A stretch of 64,000 bases of DNA from Micromonospora ferruginea (GTDB lineage: Bacteria > Actinomycetota > Actinomycetes > Mycobacteriales > Micromonosporaceae), in contig NZ_CP059322.2 in the NCBI RefSeq assembly GCF_013694245.2, positions 1,360,001 to 1,424,000 of the forward strand, in the 5' to 3' direction. The position numbers and the translations under genes are program-made. Of the stretch, positions 45,096-54,215 are shown piece by piece. Each line of letters opens with the position of its first letter. Within the stretch, counting starts at the first letter, position 1. Under the pieces are notes generated by a model, which saw only the letters and a program-made list of their open reading frames with translations, searched no databases and had not been told where the DNA came from.

Positions 45096-46067
45096 CTGTC
45101 CGCGCAGTCGACCACCCGTCCCGCCCGGCGCGCCCGCCGGGCGCTCGCCGTCGTGCTCCTGCTGGTCGTGGCCGGTATGCCGGCCGGATCGTCACCGGCC
45201 GGCGGCACCGGCTCGGGGGTGCTGCGGGTGCTCCAGATGAACCTCTGCAACAGCGGGCGGGCCGGCTGCTGGACCGGCCGCGCCGTGCCGCAGGCCGCCG
45301 AGGTGATCGCCGCCGAGCTGCCCGACGTGGTCACCCTCAACGAGATCTGCCGCGACGACGTGGACACCCTGGAAGGTGCCCTCACCGCCGTCCATCCGGG
45401 CAGCCGGATCGCCACCGCCTTCCAGGCCGCCGGCGACCGCCCCAGCGGCGCCCCGACCCGCTGCAACAACGGCCAGCCGTACGGGATCGGGCTGCTGGCC
45501 CGTCTCGACGCCCGCGACGACCGGCCCGCGGTGCACCGCGGCACCTATCCGGCGCAGGACCTCGCCGACCCCGAGGAGCGGGTCTGGCTCTGTCTGCACG
45601 CCGCCGCCGTGCTGCACGCCTGCACCACCCACCTGGCGAACACCGACGGCGCCGTCGCGCTCGCCCAGTGCGGGCAGTTGGTCGGCGCGGTGGTGCCGGC
45701 CGTCCGACGCGCCGCCGGATACGCGCCGACCGTGCTCGGCGGCGACCTCAACCTGCGGGCCGGCGGCGCGCCGGACGTACGCTCGTGCGTGCCGCCGGAC
45801 TACCGGCGGGTCGACGACGGCGCGCGGCAGCAGATCATCGCGACGAGCGACATCGCGATCTGCTGCCGGCGGGCGCTGGACATGCGCGGCTCCACCGACC
45901 ATCCCGCGCTGCTGGCCACGCTGACCGTCGACCGCCGCCGTACTGACGGAAAGCCGGCAGCCCCGCTGCCCGCCGGCCTCCGTGCGGGCACCATGGCGAC
46001 ATGGGTCATCCGCCCGGCACGCCGCCCTACGCGTCGCTGGCCGACGGCGCGCCGCTGGAATGCGTGA
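45096..46067 (+). CDS. Secreted endonuclease/exonuclease/phosphatase-fold protein
   Basis: A secreted protein of about 323 residues with a metal-dependent EEP fold. Expected motifs are VLQMNLCN (first strand Asn), DVVTLNEICRDD (metal Glu), LGGDLNLR (D-x-N) and the late STDHPALLATL (Asp-His pair). Five or more cysteines suggest disulfides. It may cut nucleic acids or phosphodiesters outside the cell. The start is uncertain: an Arg-rich then hydrophobic signal peptide (RPARRARRALAVVLLLVVAG) is in frame only if translation begins upstream of the GTG at 45153. A CTG at 45096 has GGAG five bases upstream, so I used it; ATG is absent there. The frame's 3' end overlaps the next gene by 67 bases. Confidence 0.65.
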   Translation: MSAQSTTRPARRARRALAVVLLLVVAGMPAGSSPAGGTGSGVLRVLQMNLCNSGRAGCWTGRAVPQAAEVIAAELPDVVTLNEICRDDVDTLEGALTAVHPGSRIATAFQAAGDRPSGAPTRCNNGQPYGIGLLARLDARDDRPAVHRGTYPAQDLADPEERVWLCLHAAAVLHACTTHLANTDGAVALAQCGQLVGAVVPAVRRAAGYAPTVLGGDLNLRAGGAPDVRSCVPPDYRRVDDGARQQIIATSDIAICCRRALDMRGSTDHPALLATLTVDRRRTDGKPAAPLPAGLRAGTMATWVIRPARRPTRRWPTARRWNA

Positions 46068-47068
46068 TCGCCCTCGGGCACGACGACGAGGGCGACCGGC
46101 ACCCGGTCGCGGCCGCCGCGGGCCGGACCCCCGGCACCGTCGCGCGGCACCGCTCCCTGGTCGCCGCGTTGACCGCCCGCGGGTACGCCGTCGGACCGGT
46201 CGCGGCGGCCCCGGTGCTGGCCGCGACCGGCCGTGAGCCGGTGCCGGACGGGTGCACCACGTTCCTCACCCACCCGGACGCGTTCCGGCCGTCGCCGTCG
46301 GCGCCCGGGCGGCCCGTGGTGGTGCGGATCGTCGCGAACACCGACGGGCGACAGGGGGCCTGCGCCGCCGCGGCGCTGTCGGACGGGCTGCGCTCGGCCA
46401 CGGTGTGCATGTACGTCGGGCACCTGCGCTTCGGCCTCGGTCCCGACTTCGACCCCGCCCTGCCGATCACCGTGACGCCGGGCAGCGGCCTGCCGGCCGA
46501 CCCGGACCGCCTGGCGCGGCACGCGGCGCGGACCGCCCGTCGGAGTGGCCGTCGGCTGGAGGAGACGCTCGACTCGTGGCTGAGCGACGGCCTGCTCCGG
46601 ATCGACCGCACCGGCGCGGGCCGGGTGGTCCTCGCACACCGCAACCTCGTCCCGGGCAGCGCCGTCGCCCGGCTCACCCACTGGCTGGCCCGCAACGCCC
46701 CCGGTGGGCTGGCCGAGCCGGCCTTCCCGGCCCGTTCGGGGTCCGGTCCGGTGGTGGTGTCGGCCGACCGCCCGGACGCGTCCGGCGCTCGGCCGCCCCG
46801 GCTCTGGGTGCTGATGACGTGCCGGGCGAGCGCGCTGTTCCCCGCGCTGCGGCGCGGCCTCGCACCGGATCCGGTGTGGCTGGTCGGGCCGCCGGGGATG
46901 GTGTCGTTGGAGGAGTGGCGCACGCTGCCGTGGATCCTGGACGCCCTGGCCGCGGGCGGGCCGTGGGCGGAGATACTCGGCGTGCTCGACGCGCCGGCCT
47001 ACGGGGGACGTCTCGTCCTGGACGCGCCGGCGGGCCACGAGGATCGCCGGGGGAGGGGCGATGGGTGA
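46001..47068 (+). CDS. Hypothetical protein, 355 residues
   Basis: A soluble, unrecognised protein. It opens with MGHPPGTPPYASLADGAP and has repeated small blocks (RHRSLVAALTARGYAVGPVA, RIVANTDGRQGACAAAALSDGLR, CMYVGHLRFGLGPDFDP). It contains few cysteines and no membrane segment, signal peptide or Walker motif. Codon third positions are GC-biased along the whole frame, which supports coding. The first 67 bases lie inside the preceding nuclease frame, and the last eight overlap the DTW gene, so it is probably co-transcribed with both. I cannot assign a function. Confidence 0.55.
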   Translation: MGHPPGTPPYASLADGAPLECVIALGHDDEGDRHPVAAAAGRTPGTVARHRSLVAALTARGYAVGPVAAAPVLAATGREPVPDGCTTFLTHPDAFRPSPSAPGRPVVVRIVANTDGRQGACAAAALSDGLRSATVCMYVGHLRFGLGPDFDPALPITVTPGSGLPADPDRLARHAARTARRSGRRLEETLDSWLSDGLLRIDRTGAGRVVLAHRNLVPGSAVARLTHWLARNAPGGLAEPAFPARSGSGPVVVSADRPDASGARPPRLWVLMTCRASALFPALRRGLAPDPVWLVGPPGMVSLEEWRTLPWILDALAAGGPWAEILGVLDAPAYGGRLVLDAPAGHEDRRGRGDG

Positions 47069-47774
47069 TCCTCGACCGGACGGTGAGGGCCGCCGGCGCC
47101 GGTGCGCCGGCTGTGGACGACCGCCCGCCGCCTGCTGGTGCCGCTTCGTCACCCCGGTTCACACGCCGCACCGGCTCGTGGTGCTGCGCCATCCGCGGGA
47201 GGCACGGCATGCGCTCGGCACGGTGCGGGTGCTGGCGCGGGTGATCCCGGAGACCGAGGTGTTCGACGGTGTCCGCAGGTCTCCGGCCGCGGATCACGCG
47301 GTCCGGGGTGACGCCGCCCGCCCGCCGCTGCTGCTCTACCCCGTCTCCGCGACGACGGCCGCGCCCGCGATCACCGGGGTGCCCGGTGGTGGGCCGTACA
47401 CGATCGTCGTGCTCGACGGCACCTGGCGGCAGGCCAGGAGCATGCTGAAAGCCGATGACCACCTCGGGACGATGCCGCGGATGTCGATCTCACCGACCAC
47501 TCCGAGCAGGTACGCGGTGCGCGCACAGCCCTTCCCGCACGGCCTGTCCACCCTGGAGGCCGTCGCCGAGGCGCTCGTCGTCCTGGGCGCGGAACCGGCC
47601 GTCCGCGAGGCGCTGCTGCGCCCGTTCCGGGCGCTCGTGGGGATGCACCTGGCCTGCGGGGACGCGGGTGGGGCCGACGTGCTGGACGACCCGGCCGCGT
47701 TGCTGCGGGCGGGCTACCTGCCGCCCCCACCACCGCGACAGGGGCCCGGTCAGTCGCCGCACACCGGGTTGTAG
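47061..47774 (+). CDS. DTW-domain protein (TapT/YfiP-like tRNA aminocarboxypropyltransferase family)
   Basis: A 237-residue protein. A Cys-rich N terminus, CAGCGRPPAACWC, matches the C-x-x-C-x-R-x4-C-x-C zinc-knuckle pattern of DTW proteins. The namesake motif occurs as VVLDGTWRQARSM (here D-G-T-W) at about residue 118. Characterised bacterial members (TapT) add an aminocarboxypropyl group to uridine 47 of tRNA using S-adenosylmethionine, so a tRNA-modifying role is likely. The last 25 bases overlap the 3' end of the converging lanthipeptide precursor gene. It is notable that a tRNA-modification gene and tRNA-like sequences flank the lanthipeptide operon, but I see no proof of a link. Confidence 0.82.
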   Translation: MGDPRPDGEGRRRRCAGCGRPPAACWCRFVTPVHTPHRLVVLRHPREARHALGTVRVLARVIPETEVFDGVRRSPAADHAVRGDAARPPLLLYPVSATTAAPAITGVPGGGPYTIVVLDGTWRQARSMLKADDHLGTMPRMSISPTTPSRYAVRAQPFPHGLSTLEAVAEALVVLGAEPAVREALLRPFRALVGMHLACGDAGGADVLDDPAALLRAGYLPPPPPRQGPGQSPHTGL

Positions 47775-47980
47775 CTGCACCCGCCCCCGCACGAGTCCTG
47801 GCAGCTGAACTGGCAGGTGCTGCCCTCCTCGCTCCACTCCGGGCAGCCGCCGCAGGTGCCGCTGGCCCCGATCTCGGCCGGCACCGAGAACCAGCCCGGT
47901 GCGATCCGCAGGTCCAGGTCGAATTCGTCGTCCTCGTCGACGAGCACGGCGCTCGCCCGGTCGGTGTCGGAGCTACCCAT
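47750..47980 (-). CDS. Class I lanthipeptide precursor, FxLD type
   Basis: A 76-residue precursor. The acidic leader ends in DEFDLDLRI, and F-D-L-D (residues 20-23) is the F-x-L-D recognition box used by LanB enzymes. The Cys-rich C-terminal part, about residues 27-76, has seven Cys (43, 46, 56, 60, 64, 68, 74) and nine Ser/Thr as possible dehydration sites, including TC, STC, SC and CS neighbours. It contains GG spacers and ends NPVCGD. The cleavage site is unclear. The ATG at 47980 follows GAGAGGG. It is the last gene of the lan operon, 19 bases after the unknown gene, and its 3' end overlaps the converging DTW gene. Confidence 0.85.
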   Translation of the reverse strand: MGSSDTDRASAVLVDEDDEFDLDLRIAPGWFSVPAEIGASGTCGGCPEWSEEGSTCQFSCQDSCGGGCSYNPVCGD

Positions 47981-47999
47981 CCCGGTCACCCTCTCAGTG

Positions 48000-49088
48000 C
48001 TACTGCGGTGTCTGGTCGCCGCGCAGCGGCCAGACGTTGATGGCGTAGGCGACCAGCGCCGGCAGGAACCACCACTCGTCCCGGTGCTCCGGGCCGAGCA
48101 GTTCCAGCCGCCGCGACGGAGCGGCGAGCCGCGACCGCCGAGCACCGCGGTCCGGGTCGAACGAGGCGAACTGGTCCTCCGCCTCGACCAGCCGACGGTC
48201 GAGCCGACCGTCGTCCCGGCGGCGCATGGTCGCCTCGACCGTCGCGTGGACGAAGAAGTCCGGATCCTGGGCACGGGCGGCCTCGGTCAGCACGCGCAGC
48301 GCCGGCGCGGGGTCGTCGAGGATGCGGGCCACCTCCTCGACCTGCTGGTCGCGCTGGAAGCCGCTGGTGGCGAGCACCCGCACCGCCTTGGCGTACAGCA
48401 GCCCGGTGAACGCCTGCGGGAACGTGGCGTCAGGTGCCCGGTAGGCGCGGTAGACGCTGGAGTAGCCGGGGTTGAACTGCCGCTGCAACGCGGCCGACAA
48501 CTCCGTCACCACCGGCTCGTACGCCGGGTTCGTCGGCAGCACCTGCCGGACGGCGTCGACGAGCGTGGCGAGCACCCGGTGGGCCTCCGCGTTCGACTTC
48601 GTCACCGGCGCGTCGACGGTGAGCGGCGCGAGCCAGGTGTGCACGTCGGTGTGGATCGGCGCGGCAGTCATCGACCGCCGGATCGCGTCCACCCGGCCAC
48701 GCACCCGATCCGTGACGTGGCCGGTCGGGCGCTCCTCCTCCGTCGGGTCGTGCAGCAGCGGCCGGTCCGGCACCCGCCGGGCGGCCTTGCCGCCGTAGAG
48801 CATGACCCGGTAGAAACGCTGCCCGTCCCCGTCGCCCCGGGCGTAGACGACGACGTCGTCGGAGTCGCCGAGGCCGTCGCTGTGCCCGGTCAGCCAGTCG
48901 TGGTTGCGCAACACCGTCTCGACGGCGCACTCCGCCGGGAGCCGGACGCCGATGGTGCGCAGCACGGACCGGGGACGACGGAGGTAGGCCAGGGCCTCCG
49001 GCGGGGTCATCACCCAGGCGTGACTCAGGAGGGGCTGCTCCCGCAGGACCCGGGACCTGGCGGAGACGTCGACGATGTGACTGGGCAT
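48000..49088 (-). CDS. Unrecognised protein of the lanthipeptide operon
   Basis: A 362-residue soluble protein between lanB and the precursor gene, all on one strand and 19-41 bases apart, so it is very probably part of the pathway. I recognise no motif of methyltransferases, proteases, LanD decarboxylases, P450s or transporters: no G-x-G SAM loop, no HExxH and no membrane helix. Its sequence shows an N-terminal VSARSRVLREQPLLSHAWVM, a DDVVVYARGDGDGQRFYRVMLYGG strand-rich block, and a long helical, Arg/Glu-rich C-terminal half ending LPALVAYAINVWPLRG. The ATG at 49088 has GGGAG five bases upstream. It could be a partner, scaffold or novel tailoring enzyme; its function is unknown. Confidence 0.7.
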   Translation of the reverse strand: MPSHIVDVSARSRVLREQPLLSHAWVMTPPEALAYLRRPRSVLRTIGVRLPAECAVETVLRNHDWLTGHSDGLGDSDDVVVYARGDGDGQRFYRVMLYGGKAARRVPDRPLLHDPTEEERPTGHVTDRVRGRVDAIRRSMTAAPIHTDVHTWLAPLTVDAPVTKSNAEAHRVLATLVDAVRQVLPTNPAYEPVVTELSAALQRQFNPGYSSVYRAYRAPDATFPQAFTGLLYAKAVRVLATSGFQRDQQVEEVARILDDPAPALRVLTEAARAQDPDFFVHATVEATMRRRDDGRLDRRLVEAEDQFASFDPDRGARRSRLAAPSRRLELLGPEHRDEWWFLPALVAYAINVWPLRGDQTPQ

Positions 49089-49129
49089 GGCAACTCCCGA
49101 AGGTCGCGCAGCGTCCTGCGTCGATGACT

Positions 49130-52100
49130 CTACGCGCGGTCGATGATCGAATCACCGTCGCCGATCGGATACTGTCGGCCACCGGACATCGGCCATGCCA
49201 GCACGCTGCCCAGGGCCAGGCCGGCCAGGGCGAAGACGCGCCGTTCCAGCTCCGGGGCGCCGCCGAGGAGCCGGTTCAGGTGCATGTGCACGAGGCTGCG
49301 CACCACCTGCGGGCGGGGCGTCTCCAGTCGACCGGCCGCCGCCAGGGCGTCCAGGCCGGCCGCGACCCGCGCCACGGTGGGCCGCCGCGCGTCCAGGGCC
49401 ACCGTCACCGGGTCGCGGGCCTCCGCCGGGGCGACGGAGGCCCGCAACCGTTGCTTGTCCGCCCGGAACTCGGCGGACTCGACCGGGTGGCGTGCGCCGC
49501 GGTGGGCGCGGTACCACCGGAGCCGGTGCGACGGCGGGTGTCCGAGTGCCGCCAACAGGTCGTCCACGGTCCGCACGGCGAGGTGCCGGCGGTCCGGCGC
49601 GGCGCGTACGGCCGGGTCGGCGAGCAGGCGGCACACCGCCGCGCTGTCCGCCGCGAACAACTGCTCCGCCAGGTCCAGGCCGGCGGGCCCGCCGTAGCGT
49701 TCGACCTCACGCTCGTACGTGTCGAGCGCGAACCGGTCCAGCACGCCGTCGTCGGTCAGCGTCGCCGCCCAGTCGCACAGCGCGGGCAGGGTCTCCGTAC
49801 GCAACCGTCGCGGGTCGCCGGTGAACCGCAGCCGGACGTGGAACCGGGGATCGGCGTACCGGAGGAAGAACCACGACCGGACCGCGCCGTCCCGGCACAG
49901 CCGCCCGGCCAACTCCGGCACCGGTCCGCCGAGCAGGTCGTCGACCGCGTCCACCGGCAGGTACAGCTTGGCGTACAGCCAGTCCGAGCCCGGCGGACGC
50001 ATCCGCGCCGGACGAGGAACCAGCCGCCGCGGCGCGGCGCCGCCCTCGGGATCCGGGCCGCCGCCCGCGTGGCCGGCGGCGACGTGCGGTGCGGCCCCGC
50101 CCGCCGTCGGGCCGGTGCCGGTGCGGACCACCGGCACGACCAGCTCGACGAGGCGCCGGCCGTCCGGCGACCACGCGACGGCGTCGCCCGGCTCGGGCAG
50201 CGCCTCGTGCACGTCCAGGCGCGCGCCGGCCGGCAGGTGACGCCCGGCGGCGAGCAGCAGCGTGGCGCCGACCTCGCTGTCCAGGTCGATCAGGAGCTGC
50301 TCGTCGCGCGGGCCCAGCAGGACGTACCGGGGCAGACCCGCGGCCCGCCGCGCCCCGGCGCGGTCCCGCGGGTAGGCGTCGAGGAACGCGCGGTCCAGGC
50401 TCCAGCCGGCGGGCCGCAGCACCACCCGTCCGGCCTGAACCCGGGGCCGGTACGGCAGGTGCTCGGCCGGCCCCCAGCCGAACCGGTCGAGAAGACCCGA
50501 CTCGTGGTCGACGCTCACCGCGTGCAGGAACTGCGCGAGCGGGGGCGCCATCGCCGGGGTGAGCAGGTGCAGACCGCAGGCCAGCACGTCGGAGCCGGAC
50601 CGGGTCCACACCAGCGCCAGCCGCTCCCCGCGCAGGACCACCGCCAGCTCGGACAGCGGGATGATCCGTCGTCCCGCCGGCGGCGGACCGCCGTTCACGG
50701 CGATGACGTGCTCCGGCACGACCGGCCGGACCATCACGTTCGCCGGTCGCGCCCGCACCGGCTCGAAGAGCAACTCGGCGGCGATCCTCGGCCCGTCCGC
50801 ACGGCCGACCGGGAGGTCGCCGAGAAACGCCGGCGCGCCGCCGTCGAAGAGATGACCGAACCGGCCGAACGCGCGCCCGGCCGGTGCGGTCGCACCCACC
50901 CCGGCCACCACGAGCAGGAAGTCGCCCCGGTCGACGGCCCGGTCGTCCCGGGCCGCCAGCGCGCAGAACAGGTCGACGGAACCCGGTGGATCGCCGTCGC
51001 GTCCCGCCGCCTCCTCCAGCTCCGCCACCCGGCCCTCGTCCAGCCGCACCACCCGCTCACCGGCGCGCACCGCCTCGCCGGCGAGCCGCACCAGCAGCCG
51101 TTCGTAGCGGGGGCGGGGCGGCGGCACGGCGTACACCTCGGGCAGGCCGGCGGCGACCAGGTCGAGCACCGGCACCCACCGGTCCTGGCCGTACGCCTCG
51201 GCGAACATCGGTCGCCACGCCGCCAACCCGGGGAACCGGGTGGACCACGGCGACAGCCGCGACAGCAGCTCGACCGCGCGGCACGCCTCCCGGGCCACCG
51301 CGGCGGGCAGCCGCACGGCCGGGCCGGTGAACGTGGCGTCGACCGCGAACGTGGCCGTCGGGGTCGCCGGCGCGTCGGGGCGCGAGGTGACCCGGCGGTC
51401 GACCGGGTCCGGCCGGTGGATCGCCTCCGCGCGGGCGAGCAGCCGCGGCCATTGCCGCAGCGCCGTGCCCGCGGGCAGGAGGTCCCAGCCCGCGAGGTCG
51501 TCGAGCAGGCCGCGCAGCCCGGCCGCGGCCGACGCGCCGGCCGCATCGAGCACCCGTGCCACCTCCCGTGCGGGCTCCGCCGTCAGCGCGGGGCGCAGGT
51601 CGGTGACCAGGAAGCCCCGCTCGACGAGCGTGTCCACCACGGCGCGGGTGCGGTCGGGGTCGCGGCCGGTGGCGGTCAGGCGGTGGATCAGCGCGGCGTG
51701 GCCGACACCCGACCGGCAGGCCGCCAGCGCCTCCCGCACCACGGCGGTGGCCCGCACGGAGGACGCCGTCGCGCCCGCCGCGTCGGGCAGCACCGCCCGG
51801 CCCCCGCGCAGGTGCGCGGCGGGATGGGTGGTGAGGCGCAGGTGCCGCCGGACTCCCGGCTCACGCTCGTACCGTTCCACCAGGCCGAGCAGCCACGCCA
51901 TGTCGGGCCGGCTCCGGCGCGCCGGCGGACCCAGGGTGACCCGGGCGCGGTCCCCCCAACTGCCCGACGCGATGCCGGCGAACAGGCCGAACGGGGTCGG
52001 TCGGGTGGACATCCGCACCAGGTAGGAGGCCAGGGCCGTCCGGACCGGGGCCAGGTCGCCATCCTCGGCGGCGTGTGCCGCGACCGCCCGCGCCATCGAC

Positions 52101-52264
52101 GGCGAGGCGACGGCCAGCGCCAGCGCCACCTCCGGGTCACGGCTCAACGTCACGAGCCGGCGGTCGGGGTCGGGCTGCGACAGCTCGACGAACCGGTCCA
52201 CCGGCAGCGCGGGCGCCCGCACCATGAACGTGGGAGCCGCCCGCCACCGCCGTTCGCCGGTCAC
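49130..52264 (-). CDS. Lanthipeptide dehydratase LanB, full length
   Basis: A 1044-residue class I dehydratase. It activates Ser/Thr side chains of the precursor by glutamylation from glutamyl-tRNA(Glu), then eliminates glutamate to give dehydroalanine/dehydrobutyrine. The N-terminal glutamylation domain (about 1-700) shows RAPALPVDRFVEL, LASYLVRMSTRPTPFGLFAG (the TPFG motif) and RDRAGARRAAGLPRYVLLGPRDEQLLIDL. The C-terminal elimination domain (about 770-1044, SpaB_C/thiopeptide-dehydration type) begins SDWLYAKLYLP and contains SWFFLRYADPRFHVRLRF with its conserved R-Y-x-D-P-x-x-H-x-R. Both halves are in one chain. The GTG at 52264 lies one base after the LanC stop codon, so translation is coupled. 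Confidence 0.95.
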   Translation of the reverse strand: MTGERRWRAAPTFMVRAPALPVDRFVELSQPDPDRRLVTLSRDPEVALALAVASPSMARAVAAHAAEDGDLAPVRTALASYLVRMSTRPTPFGLFAGIASGSWGDRARVTLGPPARRSRPDMAWLLGLVERYEREPGVRRHLRLTTHPAAHLRGGRAVLPDAAGATASSVRATAVVREALAACRSGVGHAALIHRLTATGRDPDRTRAVVDTLVERGFLVTDLRPALTAEPAREVARVLDAAGASAAAGLRGLLDDLAGWDLLPAGTALRQWPRLLARAEAIHRPDPVDRRVTSRPDAPATPTATFAVDATFTGPAVRLPAAVAREACRAVELLSRLSPWSTRFPGLAAWRPMFAEAYGQDRWVPVLDLVAAGLPEVYAVPPPRPRYERLLVRLAGEAVRAGERVVRLDEGRVAELEEAAGRDGDPPGSVDLFCALAARDDRAVDRGDFLLVVAGVGATAPAGRAFGRFGHLFDGGAPAFLGDLPVGRADGPRIAAELLFEPVRARPANVMVRPVVPEHVIAVNGGPPPAGRRIIPLSELAVVLRGERLALVWTRSGSDVLACGLHLLTPAMAPPLAQFLHAVSVDHESGLLDRFGWGPAEHLPYRPRVQAGRVVLRPAGWSLDRAFLDAYPRDRAGARRAAGLPRYVLLGPRDEQLLIDLDSEVGATLLLAAGRHLPAGARLDVHEALPEPGDAVAWSPDGRRLVELVVPVVRTGTGPTAGGAAPHVAAGHAGGGPDPEGGAAPRRLVPRPARMRPPGSDWLYAKLYLPVDAVDDLLGGPVPELAGRLCRDGAVRSWFFLRYADPRFHVRLRFTGDPRRLRTETLPALCDWAATLTDDGVLDRFALDTYEREVERYGGPAGLDLAEQLFAADSAAVCRLLADPAVRAAPDRRHLAVRTVDDLLAALGHPPSHRLRWYRAHRGARHPVESAEFRADKQRLRASVAPAEARDPVTVALDARRPTVARVAAGLDALAAAGRLETPRPQVVRSLVHMHLNRLLGGAPELERRVFALAGLALGSVLAWPMSGGRQYPIGDGDSIIDRA

Positions 52265-52265
52265 C

Positions 52266-53585
52266 TCAGGCCACCGCGAAGATGCGGTCCCAGCCCGCCG
52301 GCCCGTCACCCGAGGCGGCCAGCAGCACCAGGACCACCCCGGCGGCGCCGTCGAGCACCCCGGCCGAGTCCACCGGCGGCTCGTCGCGTTCCCGTCGGCG
52401 GAAACCGAACACACTGTCCGGCTCGTACACCTCGATCAGGCGGATCACCTCGTCCTCCGCGGCTGTGGCGAGGTCGCCGTCACCGGTGTCGGCAGCGAAG
52501 CGCAGCGCGATGTGGGCCAGGCCGGCCTGGCCGTGGCAGAACGTGGGGGAGGTGATGCCGCGTTCGGACGGTGGCCGGCGCAGCGTCCCCCGGACGGCGT
52601 CCACCGCCTCGGCGCGCCACGTCGCCCGGTCCAGCGCGCAGCCGGCGAGCCAGAGCGCCCGCGCACAGCCCGCGGTCCCGTAGCACCACGCGGACCGCCC
52701 CGGCGGCGGCACCGGGACGGTGGGGTCGACGGACACGCCGTTGGGCCAGGCCGGCCCCCATCGGTCGGCGCGCCGGTAACGCCGCAACCAGTCCGTCAGG
52801 CCGGCCACCGCCGCCGTCGTGGCATCACCGCCGACACCCTCGATCGACGCCAGCGCGAGTGCGGACAGGACGCCCGGCAGCCCGTGCGCCACGCCGAGGT
52901 TGAGCAACGGCCGCCGGCCGTCGAGGCGCATCGCCCCCCACTGCGGCGGCGCGACGAGACGCGGATGCCCGTCGCTGCCGTCGTCGGGCCGGGCGAGCGT
53001 GACCAGCGCCGCCAGCGCTTCGCGCAGGGCCGCGTCGATCTCGGACCGGCCACGCCGGATCAGGAGCGCCACGGTGACTCCGGCGAGCCCGGTGACGAGA
53101 TCGACCAGGGGCGGCCGTAGCGGCGCGACACCCTGCCGGACCTGGCGCGCCAGCAGCGTGGCGCCGTGGGCCAGCGCGGTGTCGCACTGCGCCAGAAACG
53201 CGCGGTAGCGGGGCCGGCCGGCGGCCAGCGCGGTCGCGGCGACCGCCAGCCCACCCCATCCGGTGTGCAGCGAGGGACCGAGCCGGCTCAGCGTCGCCTC
53301 GTCGCCGAGGCTCGCGGCCAGGTGCAGGTGCCCGAAACGATCCCAACCCGCGCCCGGCCGGCTCTCGTCCAGCGCGGCGGCCATCAGGGCGAGCCCGGCG
53401 TGCCCGGAGGCCAGCCCGGGGGACCGCCCGCCGTCCCCGTCGTCGGCCCGGTCCAGCCTGCCGCCGGGGGCGGTGCGGGTGCGGATCGCCTCGGCCGCGG
53501 CCGACGCGACCTCCCGGGCACGACACCGGGTCGTGCTCGTCACCGGCGGCACCCAGGCCGCGACACCGGGAGGAAGTGTCGTCAT
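52266..53585 (-). CDS. Lanthionine cyclase LanC
   Basis: A 439-residue cyclase that adds cysteine thiols to dehydrated residues to close the thioether rings. The three zinc ligands appear in the expected order: Cys of AWCYGTAG, then Cys and His of TFCHGQAG. The alpha-toroid repeats G-H-A-G-L-A, G-W-G-G, G-L-A-G and H-G-L-P-G are spaced along the chain. The ATG at 53585 is chosen because upstream residues are Arg/Pro-rich and not conserved. It is the first gene of the operon (lanC-lanB-unknown-lanA). Its upstream region holds an inverted repeat and two plus-strand tRNA-like sequences. No dedicated transporter, leader protease or immunity gene is seen nearby. Confidence 0.94.
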   Translation of the reverse strand: MTTLPPGVAAWVPPVTSTTRCRAREVASAAAEAIRTRTAPGGRLDRADDGDGGRSPGLASGHAGLALMAAALDESRPGAGWDRFGHLHLAASLGDEATLSRLGPSLHTGWGGLAVAATALAAGRPRYRAFLAQCDTALAHGATLLARQVRQGVAPLRPPLVDLVTGLAGVTVALLIRRGRSEIDAALREALAALVTLARPDDGSDGHPRLVAPPQWGAMRLDGRRPLLNLGVAHGLPGVLSALALASIEGVGGDATTAAVAGLTDWLRRYRRADRWGPAWPNGVSVDPTVPVPPPGRSAWCYGTAGCARALWLAGCALDRATWRAEAVDAVRGTLRRPPSERGITSPTFCHGQAGLAHIALRFAADTGDGDLATAAEDEVIRLIEVYEPDSVFGFRRRERDEPPVDSAGVLDGAAGVVLVLLAASGDGPAGWDRIFAVA

Positions 53586-53598
53586 CGGAACGGATGGT

Positions 53599-53634
53599 CG
53601 CACGGAGCGAGGTGGTCGTGCTACCGTCCGTGCG
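53599..53634. promoter_or_regulatory. Inverted repeat upstream of lanC
   Basis: CGCACGGA (53599-53606) and TCCGTGCG (53627-53634) are perfect complements separated by 20 bases, 14-49 bases before the lanC start codon. This could be an operator or an RNA hairpin in the lan leader. No -10/-35 pair was defined with confidence. Confidence 0.4.
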
Positions 53635-53638
53635 GGGC

Positions 53639-53711
53639 GTGCCCGTAGTTCAGTTGGGTAGAACACCGGCGGACGCAGCCGGAGGTCAGGGGTTGGATTC
53701 CCCTCGGTACC
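53639..53711 (+). tRNA. tRNA-like element 1 (degenerate acceptor stem)
   Basis: A cloverleaf can be drawn: TA at positions 8-9; D stem GTTC/GAAC around AGTTGGGTA; perfect anticodon stem CCGGC/GCCGG around the loop GGACGCA; variable region AGGTC; T stem AGGGG/CCCCT around TTGGATT. The acceptor stem is poor (GTGCCCG against CGGTACC). The invariant T33 is G and C56 is G, so ordinary decoding is unlikely. It is oriented opposite to lanC and followed after 10 bases by a second copy. Confidence 0.55.
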
Positions 53712-53721
53712 GTCCCGTCGC

Positions 53722-53796
53722 ACCTTCGTAGTTCAGTTGGGGTAGAACACCGGCGAACGCAGCCGGAGGTCGGGAGTTGGACTCTCCCCGAAGGTG
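53722..53796 (+). tRNA. tRNA-like element 2 (complete cloverleaf, atypical loops)
   Basis: All four stems pair perfectly: acceptor ACCTTCG/CGAAGGT (nine pairs if extended outward), D stem GTTC/GAAC around AGTTGGGGTA, anticodon stem CCGGC/GCCGG around GAACGCA, and T stem GGGAG/CTCCC around TTGGACT. The T stem differs from copy 1 by paired changes at two positions, which argues for selection on structure. As in copy 1, T33 is missing (A instead) and C56 is G. No encoded CCA end is present. A literal reading of the anticodon would be ACG, but with the abnormal loop I do not assign an amino acid. Confidence 0.6.
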
Positions 53797-53849
53797 CCCC
53801 TCCTCCGTCGACCGCCCGCGCAGGGCGGACCGGCGCCGCGGGCCGACCG

Positions 53850-54215
53850 TCAGCGGCCGTCGAGCCGAGCGACGAGCGTCGCCGACGCCACCGACCGGTA
53901 CGCGTCCTGGAGCACCTCGGCCAGCTCGGCCTCGTCGATGCCGCTGTCGAGGCGGACACCGACCCAGCCGCGACCCCCGACGTAGGGCGGGCGGAAGTAG
54001 GTGCGCGGGTCCGCCGCGACCAGCTCGCCGGCCGCACCGGTCGGCGCCGCGCACCACAGGTGCGGGAACTCGTCCTGGTGGTGGCCGTCGGGCCAGACGG
54101 TGGCGAACGACTTCTTCCCCCGCACGAACCAGGTCGGGGTGCCGTGGCTGAGTCGCTCGCTGACCTCGGGCAGCGCCAGGCAGGCCCGCCGAATGCTCTC
54201 CACCATGTCGGACAT
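53850..54215 (-). CDS. MmcQ/YjbR family DNA-binding-like protein
   Basis: A 121-residue protein with the CyaY-like MmcQ/YjbR fold: RRACLALPEVSERLSHGTPTWFVRGKKSFATVWPDGHH at the N terminus, then FRPPYVGGRGWVGVRLDSGIDEAELAEVLQDAYRSVA. These small proteins are common in actinobacteria, and their function is undefined despite the usual label. The start at 54215 is an ATG followed by a second in-frame Met (SDMVES). It lies on the same strand as the lan operon but upstream of it, separated by the tRNA-like elements. Confidence 0.85.
   Translation of the reverse strand: MSDMVESIRRACLALPEVSERLSHGTPTWFVRGKKSFATVWPDGHHQDEFPHLWCAAPTGAAGELVAADPRTYFRPPYVGGRGWVGVRLDSGIDEAELAEVLQDAYRSVASATLVARLDGR

Follow-up and report, generated by a model that had tools for sequence, protein, structure and literature searches.

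What are two adjacent tRNA-shaped sequences doing beside a lanthipeptide operon of Micromonospora ferruginea? The window (the whole stretch of 64,000 nucleotides analysed here) carries them close to lanC. An initial annotation described them as cloverleafs that should not decode normally and suggested, as a bold idea, that they serve or regulate peptide modification. The observation itself is confirmed, and it is stronger in its context than that annotation knew. Our preferred reading of the sequence, to which we would give a probability of roughly 0.4, is that the pair are genes for folded, non-decoding tRNA-like RNAs that are kept for their fold at the edge of a lanthipeptide block.

Two tRNA folds with altered loops

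The elements concerned and the hairpins on either side of them are as follows.

53590..53631, plus strand: hairpin between the LanC start and copy 1 (centroid structure with 14 pairs in two helices; z -3.39)
53639..53711, plus strand: tRNA-like copy 1 (ARAGORN, RF00005)
53721..53796, plus strand: tRNA-like copy 2 (ARAGORN, RF00005)
53806..53835, plus strand: G+C-rich hairpin, 9 nt after copy 2 (z 0.17, no better than shuffles)

Both folds announced on the plus strand are recovered. ARAGORN calls tRNA-Arg(acg) at 53638-53712 and at 53721-53799 (+), and the canonical tRNA model RF00005, with a curated cut-off of 29 bits, gives 37.3 bits to copy 1 (53639-53711) and 48.6 bits to copy 2 (53722-53796). 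A fast Rfam scan of the whole window reported neither copy. Among own-genome tRNA matches above the cut-off copy 1 is the weakest, and copy 2 is not among the matches listed.

The acceptor of copy 1 begins with GTGCCCG and is damaged in its 3' half (4 of 7 pairs when read ungapped, or 6 with one base left unpaired). Its D stem is GTTC/GAAC, its anticodon loop GGACGCA, its variable loop AGGTC and its T loop TTGGATT. The acceptor of copy 2, an 8-bp helix CACCTTCG/CGAAGGTG, is as perfect as first stated, with 7/7 pairs plus C(-1):G73; the anticodon, variable and T loops read GAACGCA, AGGTC and TTGGACT. CCA is encoded in neither copy, and copy 2 has CCC directly on its 3' side. The two copies have identical D and anticodon stems, and T-stem pairs 49:65 and 52:62 are changed on both sides, again as first reported; the four T-stem changes leave 5/5 pairs intact (random P 0.017). 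Free energy is uninformative: measured against shuffled sequences on the plus strand, copy 1 has a z of 0.07 and copy 2 one of -1.62, and the value for the complement of copy 2 (z -2.92) is better than that of copy 2 itself. The support for the fold thus comes from covariation and model score, not from stability.

Two other identities were tried for the pair and rejected. A YrlA or Y RNA-like element (RF02553), spanning both copies, scores 27.7 bits against a cut-off of 69. Nor is the pair a tRNA array, since arrays contain many densely packed genes of mixed isotypes and here there are just two genes of one isotype.

The loops depart from those of decoding tRNAs at three positions. Position 33 is G in copy 1 and A in copy 2, U33 being absent from both; position 56 is G in both, with loss of C56, the partner of G19. 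These two changes had been recorded in the initial annotation. The third had escaped it: position 37 is C in both copies, in place of a purine. The G19:C56 pair belongs to the established structure of tRNA. The anticodon ACG and G18G19 are retained in both copies.

For comparison, 286 distinct tRNAs were assembled from the own genome and the same genus, the pair included (array loci supplied 239, other loci 47; loci L001-L103, ARAGORN calls with parsable loops, identical sequences counted once). Purine 33, C37 and G56 in combination occur in the two copies only, and so do C37 by itself and G56 by itself; C56 is present in 237/239 array tRNAs. U33 is missing from 33 of the 239 array tRNAs, with C33 in 30 and a purine in 3, one of the latter being a tRNA-Arg(ACG) with A33 (L053). 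These counts indicate that loss of U33 alone is not rare in the genus, whereas the combination of G56 and C37 is rare.

It might be argued that the copies are unusual tRNA-Arg(ACG) genes with a continuing role in reading CGN codons. They keep the ACG anticodon and the stems, and U33, which 33 of the 239 array tRNAs lack, is not strict here. We consider this improbable, as purine 33, C37 and G56 are combined in no other compared tRNA, the G19:C56 pair is lost, and position 20 (in the numbering used here) is G where the host tRNA-Arg(ACG) has A. Judged by the losses at 33, 37 and 56, both copies are unlikely to decode, in agreement with the initial view. They resemble in this respect a pseudo-tRNA of the tRNA-Other type (see below), that is, a tRNA fold without translational hallmarks, located in or beside an acquired block.

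Probable descent from tRNA-Arg(ACG) and proposed retention of the fold

The copies descend most plausibly from tRNA-Arg(ACG), to judge from their sequence. A covariance model built from the pair (R1) scores the two copies at 106.5 and 98.5 bits, and the next best among the matches listed reach 66.8 bits in 160 same-genus genomes and 72.5 bits in 354 family genomes. The best family matches read by ARAGORN are eight tRNA-Arg genes (seven ACG, one CCG), and in the genus all 14 loci looked at, out of 29, are tRNA-Arg genes as well, a preference for Arg(ACG) that is built in because R1 itself contains ACG. R1 also matches ordinary tRNAs, with hits in 160/160 genus genomes; under strict filters, each genus genome contributed up to 30 scored candidates and each family genome up to 13. 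Within the own genome, the next R1 match listed after the pair is the chromosomal tRNA-Arg(ACG), at 61.6 bits. Copy 1 shares with this host tRNA six of the seven 5' acceptor letters and the T-stem strand AGGGG.

Set against the same host gene, copy 2 has a different letter at 21 of its 42 stem positions, and none of its 21 pairs is broken. Ten pairs are changed on both sides and one on one side only; random placement breaks 11.7 pairs on average, in a test that treats all stem changes as one neutral lineage and is blind to their timing. Copy 1 shows 13 stem differences and three broken pairs, all of them in the acceptor; its D, anticodon and T stems together carry nine changes with no pair broken. 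When array tRNAs are taken as start points, there are again 0 broken pairs in copy 2 and 3 in copy 1. Many of the stem changes could date from functional tRNA ancestors, before the loss of decoding, and the matching stems could come partly from recombination between tRNAs. C56G aside, each copy has a T arm that matches that of an array tRNA, the array tRNA not being the same for the two.

More telling than the host comparison is the comparison of the copies with each other: the loop losses are common to both, yet paired T-stem positions differ. We infer from this that the shared loop changes came first and that the stems of the two copies parted afterwards, which suggests that the fold, at least that of copy 2, would still have been under selection once decoding had been lost. 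Relatives of the pair were looked for and not found, so that the argument for selection draws on the two copies of a single genome.

An alternative, also held tentatively and with a real chance of being right, is that the copies are inert relics, two tRNA-Arg-derived pseudogenes left at the block edge either in a donor or at insertion. The acceptor of copy 1 is damaged, CCA is lacking from both, and the pair is found in one genome. Islands often border tRNA genes or fragments (PMC9897764, PMC3399842). Arrays are common in the genus, where some tRNAs lack U33 and one array tRNA-Arg(ACG) has A33, and the host has an array at a distance of 137 kb. What speaks against relics is that copy 2, unlike the host tRNA-Arg(ACG) at 21 stem positions, has no broken pair, and that simple decay after duplication does not yield shared loop losses together with differing paired stems. 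A retained, non-decoding role is for these reasons ranked slightly above inert relics.

Searches for further copies bear on both readings. BLAST found no second copy of the pair in the own genome (the runner-up, at E 0.013, lies in a tRNA-Ala gene). Degenerate copies scattered at unrelated loci, which the initial annotation had named as a refuting sign, were not found among the candidates scored in 160 genus and 354 family genomes. Short partial matches of at most 62 bases occur in 25 of 159 other genus genomes, the best in ordinary tRNA genes and others in loci without a tRNA. The pair has no match in plasmids or phages. A strict loop pattern has no match in genome contigs, and a looser pattern has none in viral contigs.

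The looser pattern has nine matches in genome contigs. These were rejected: ARAGORN finds a tRNA at 0/9 matched sites, and the R1 scores there are weak (23.3 bits at L108, 12.2 bits at L112). Both of these sites lie within open frames, of 492 aa at L108 and shorter at L112, and the weak scores are to be expected since the loop pattern was cut from the R1 model. Two contigs with looser-pattern matches hold ordinary tRNAs elsewhere. Four 16-base BLAST matches fall at query positions 91-106; the two inside the window were dismissed, as they lie in two near-identical stretches that by eye resemble NRPS coding sequence.

As for ordinary arrays, the own genome carries one of 12 tRNA genes 137 kb upstream (L069:7177-8525), and loci in related genomes contain up to 25 tRNA genes per 3 kb.

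The inserted block and its genes

The pair belongs to an inserted block, the components of which are listed below.

45925..45936, plus strand: 12-bp direct repeat CCGTCGACCGCC, left edge (repeat search)
45929..53853, no strand: inserted block of about 7.9 kb (homology breaks against G132 and G047)
46001..47068, plus strand: 355-aa protein, predicted clan-CD (separase/CHAT-like) fold
47061..47774, plus strand: DTW-domain protein (Pfam PF03942; DGTW motif and Cys4 intact)
47750..47980, minus strand: likely lanthipeptide precursor of 76 aa with a Cys-rich C-terminus (from translation only)
48000..49088, minus strand: 362-aa protein, encoded between LanB and the precursor, that matches nothing in Pfam or NCBIfam
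49130..52414, minus strand: LanB dehydratase (Pfam PF04738 and PF14028)
52266..53585, minus strand: LanC (Pfam PF05147)
53805..53816, plus strand: 12-bp direct repeat CCGTCGACCGCC at the right edge, a little beyond copy 2 (repeat search)

Homology to two syntenic genomes of the same genus (G132 and G047; 88-94%) ends at window position 45928 and resumes at 53854. In both, the genes that flank the block adjoin each other, and the left gene of G132 ends 12 bases, by eye, from the YjbR stop. The exact right edge lies somewhere between 53800 and 53854. The tRNA-like pair, just inside this edge, thus shares one acquired block with the LanC-LanB operon and the DTW gene, as well as with the 355-aa protein, the likely precursor and the 362-aa protein; the initial annotation had noticed the neighbourhood of the first three. 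There is no tRNA at the empty site of G132 and G047, nor at the YjbR loci of 29 other same-genus genomes, for which same-site status is shown in G132 and G047 only (YjbR matched in 38 genomes, of which the own locus and 29 others were analysed). G144 shares YjbR and not its surroundings, and is therefore uninformative on the insertion site.

Gain at this site is a simpler account than losses elsewhere, since strong LanC and DTW matches are absent from the other genus genomes. At E 1e-40, LanC is found in no other of 160 genus genomes, and a weaker relative appears at 1e-25 in 12. The DTW protein of the block gives the only PF03942 match among 354 family genomes, with none in the other genus genomes (160 searched). 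Elsewhere, too, LanC, the 355-aa protein and DTW appear to occur as a set, since relatives of all three are listed on contigs of matching lengths, 528,045 and 177,546 bases; the LanC and 355-aa searches report results among the candidates scored. LanB has no match in plasmids.

The gene to the left of the block (45153-46067) is cut at the junction, with loss of its original C-terminus. Its frame continues for about 45 codons within the insert, where it overlaps the 355-aa gene.

That the pair might form part of the attachment site of an integrating element is brought to mind by its edge position next to a 12-bp direct repeat. We regard this as very doubtful. G132 and G047 carry no tRNA at the empty site, and integrase matches were found in 0/6 block proteins scanned, three of which matched nothing. 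The repeat itself is suggestive only, because a shared run of at least 12 bp turns up in 40 of 2968 pairs of stretches drawn at random from the window.

The block has the composition of a class I lanthipeptide cluster, with PF04738, PF14028 and PF05147 together with a likely precursor read from translation alone. This 76-aa peptide contains FDLDL, which we take to be a leader-like motif; a longer open reading frame over it has no family match. The DTW protein matches PDB 9kyt, a tRNA-uridine aminocarboxypropyltransferase, and its gene overlaps the 355-aa gene by 8 bases. The 355-aa protein has at least six family members, with invariant His141 and Cys274. It is possibly a leader peptidase; Foldseek gave no significant match for it.

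The placement of the pair directly upstream of lanC and opposite to it needed a correction in detail. LanC, on the minus strand, starts at 53585 according to homologues P0003 and P0005, or 14 codons further in, at 53543, in its own database entry (P0001) and in P0002, and YjbR stops at 53850. With either start the pair lies between YjbR and LanC and diverges from LanC. It would be transcribed from the gap of about 50 bp next to lanC. TACCGT at 53622-53627, within the 53590-53631 hairpin, is plausibly placed for copy 1 and is presumably a TANNNT-like -10 element; a scan for promoters and terminators found neither. The hairpin at 53806..53835 is a possible transcript end. The lanC promoter must overlap the 53590-53631 hairpin or the antisense strand of the tRNA-like copies, unless its transcription begins upstream of YjbR.

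Possible partners and related systems

If the pair is kept for its fold, it is predicted to be the RNA partner of a block enzyme that reads tRNA-shaped RNA. One candidate considered is LanB. Lantibiotic dehydratases use Glu-tRNA, and its acceptor stem is a major recognition element for them (PMC9993889); the pair adjoins the LanB operon and might act as a substitute or decoy for glutamyl-tRNA. This is the least probable of the readings considered here. The acceptors of the pair, GTGCCCG and ACCTTCG, are unlike GCCCTCA of tRNA-Glu(ttc) and GGGCCGT of array tRNA-Glu(ctc), the two Glu genes among 30 of 62 own tRNA matches, which makes LanB a poor partner. The anticodon is ACG, and a tRNA lies within 1.5 kb of LanC at none of the 29 other family loci tested, whose LanC proteins are all distant, with 31-42% identity (36 matches in 32 genomes were surveyed). 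The role in peptide modification originally proposed is thus not borne out.

The DTW aminocarboxypropyl transferase would be the most plausible partner, albeit a speculative one. Enzymes of the TapT/DTW type place acp on U47 or on D-loop uridines (PMC6895100), and DTW is favoured here because both copies keep U47, the site modified by bacterial family members. Among 206 tRNAs whose variable loop has five bases (compared loci except L104-L112), 119 have the G46-U47 that both copies keep, so that U47 is weak evidence and a lead only. A block-borne RNA-protein pair, in which DTW would modify, or scaffold on, two dedicated, non-decoding tRNA-Arg-derived RNAs in a manner coupled to lanthipeptide maturation or control, is put forward here as an unlikely reading. 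Ordinary tRNAs or the peptide are other substrates that the DTW of the block may have; modification of the peptide would amount to a new RiPP step.

The nearest functional parallel is tRNA-Other of Bacillus cereus (PMC3399842), a tRNA-shaped and non-translational element by a genomic island, suggested there to be a tRNA-like element in a larger regulatory RNA. tRNA-Other is a single copy with a Trp anticodon, for which transcripts and deletion effects are shown; the present pair, known from sequence, is a tandem of Arg(ACG) type that lies within a lanthipeptide block. In principle, the nearest parallel is the non-proteinogenic tRNA-Gly of Staphylococcus aureus, the D and T arms of which depart from the norm. 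It is thought to escape EF-Tu and to supply aminoacyl-tRNA-dependent transferases off the ribosome (PMC4052509). It keeps its glycine role and has lost G18G19, whereas the pair keeps G18G19 and has lost C56, U33 and purine 37. Tandem tRNA genes also occur in the tRNA arrays of Actinobacteria (PMC5966550); unlike these, the pair comprises two genes of the same isoacceptor, and array tRNAs keep C56 in all but two cases. The DTW protein of the block resembles TapT/DTW transferases (PMC6895100) in its DGTW motif, Cys4 and PDB 9kyt match, and differs from them in that its gene accompanies a lanthipeptide operon and the gene of a predicted CHAT-like protein.

The phrases 'tRNA gene' and 'dedicated tRNA' are absent from the accessible text of a review of aminoacyl-tRNA-dependent natural-product enzymes (PMC12945691). 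Among the literature matches listed, titles and abstract openings contain no case of tRNA genes in lanthipeptide clusters or of DTW with RiPPs, and no paper was found in the library searched that combines 'lanthipeptide' with 'tRNA-uridine aminocarboxypropyltransferase'. We know of no earlier biosynthetic cluster with dedicated tRNA mimics; the block would be the first, if the proposal is true. Should the pair be expressed, it would mean that tRNA genes have been re-used beyond decoding and moved within a natural-product gene block. The block is of note in itself, as it brings together an aminocarboxypropyltransferase-type protein, a lanthipeptide operon and a predicted CHAT-like protein, apparently in other genomes too.
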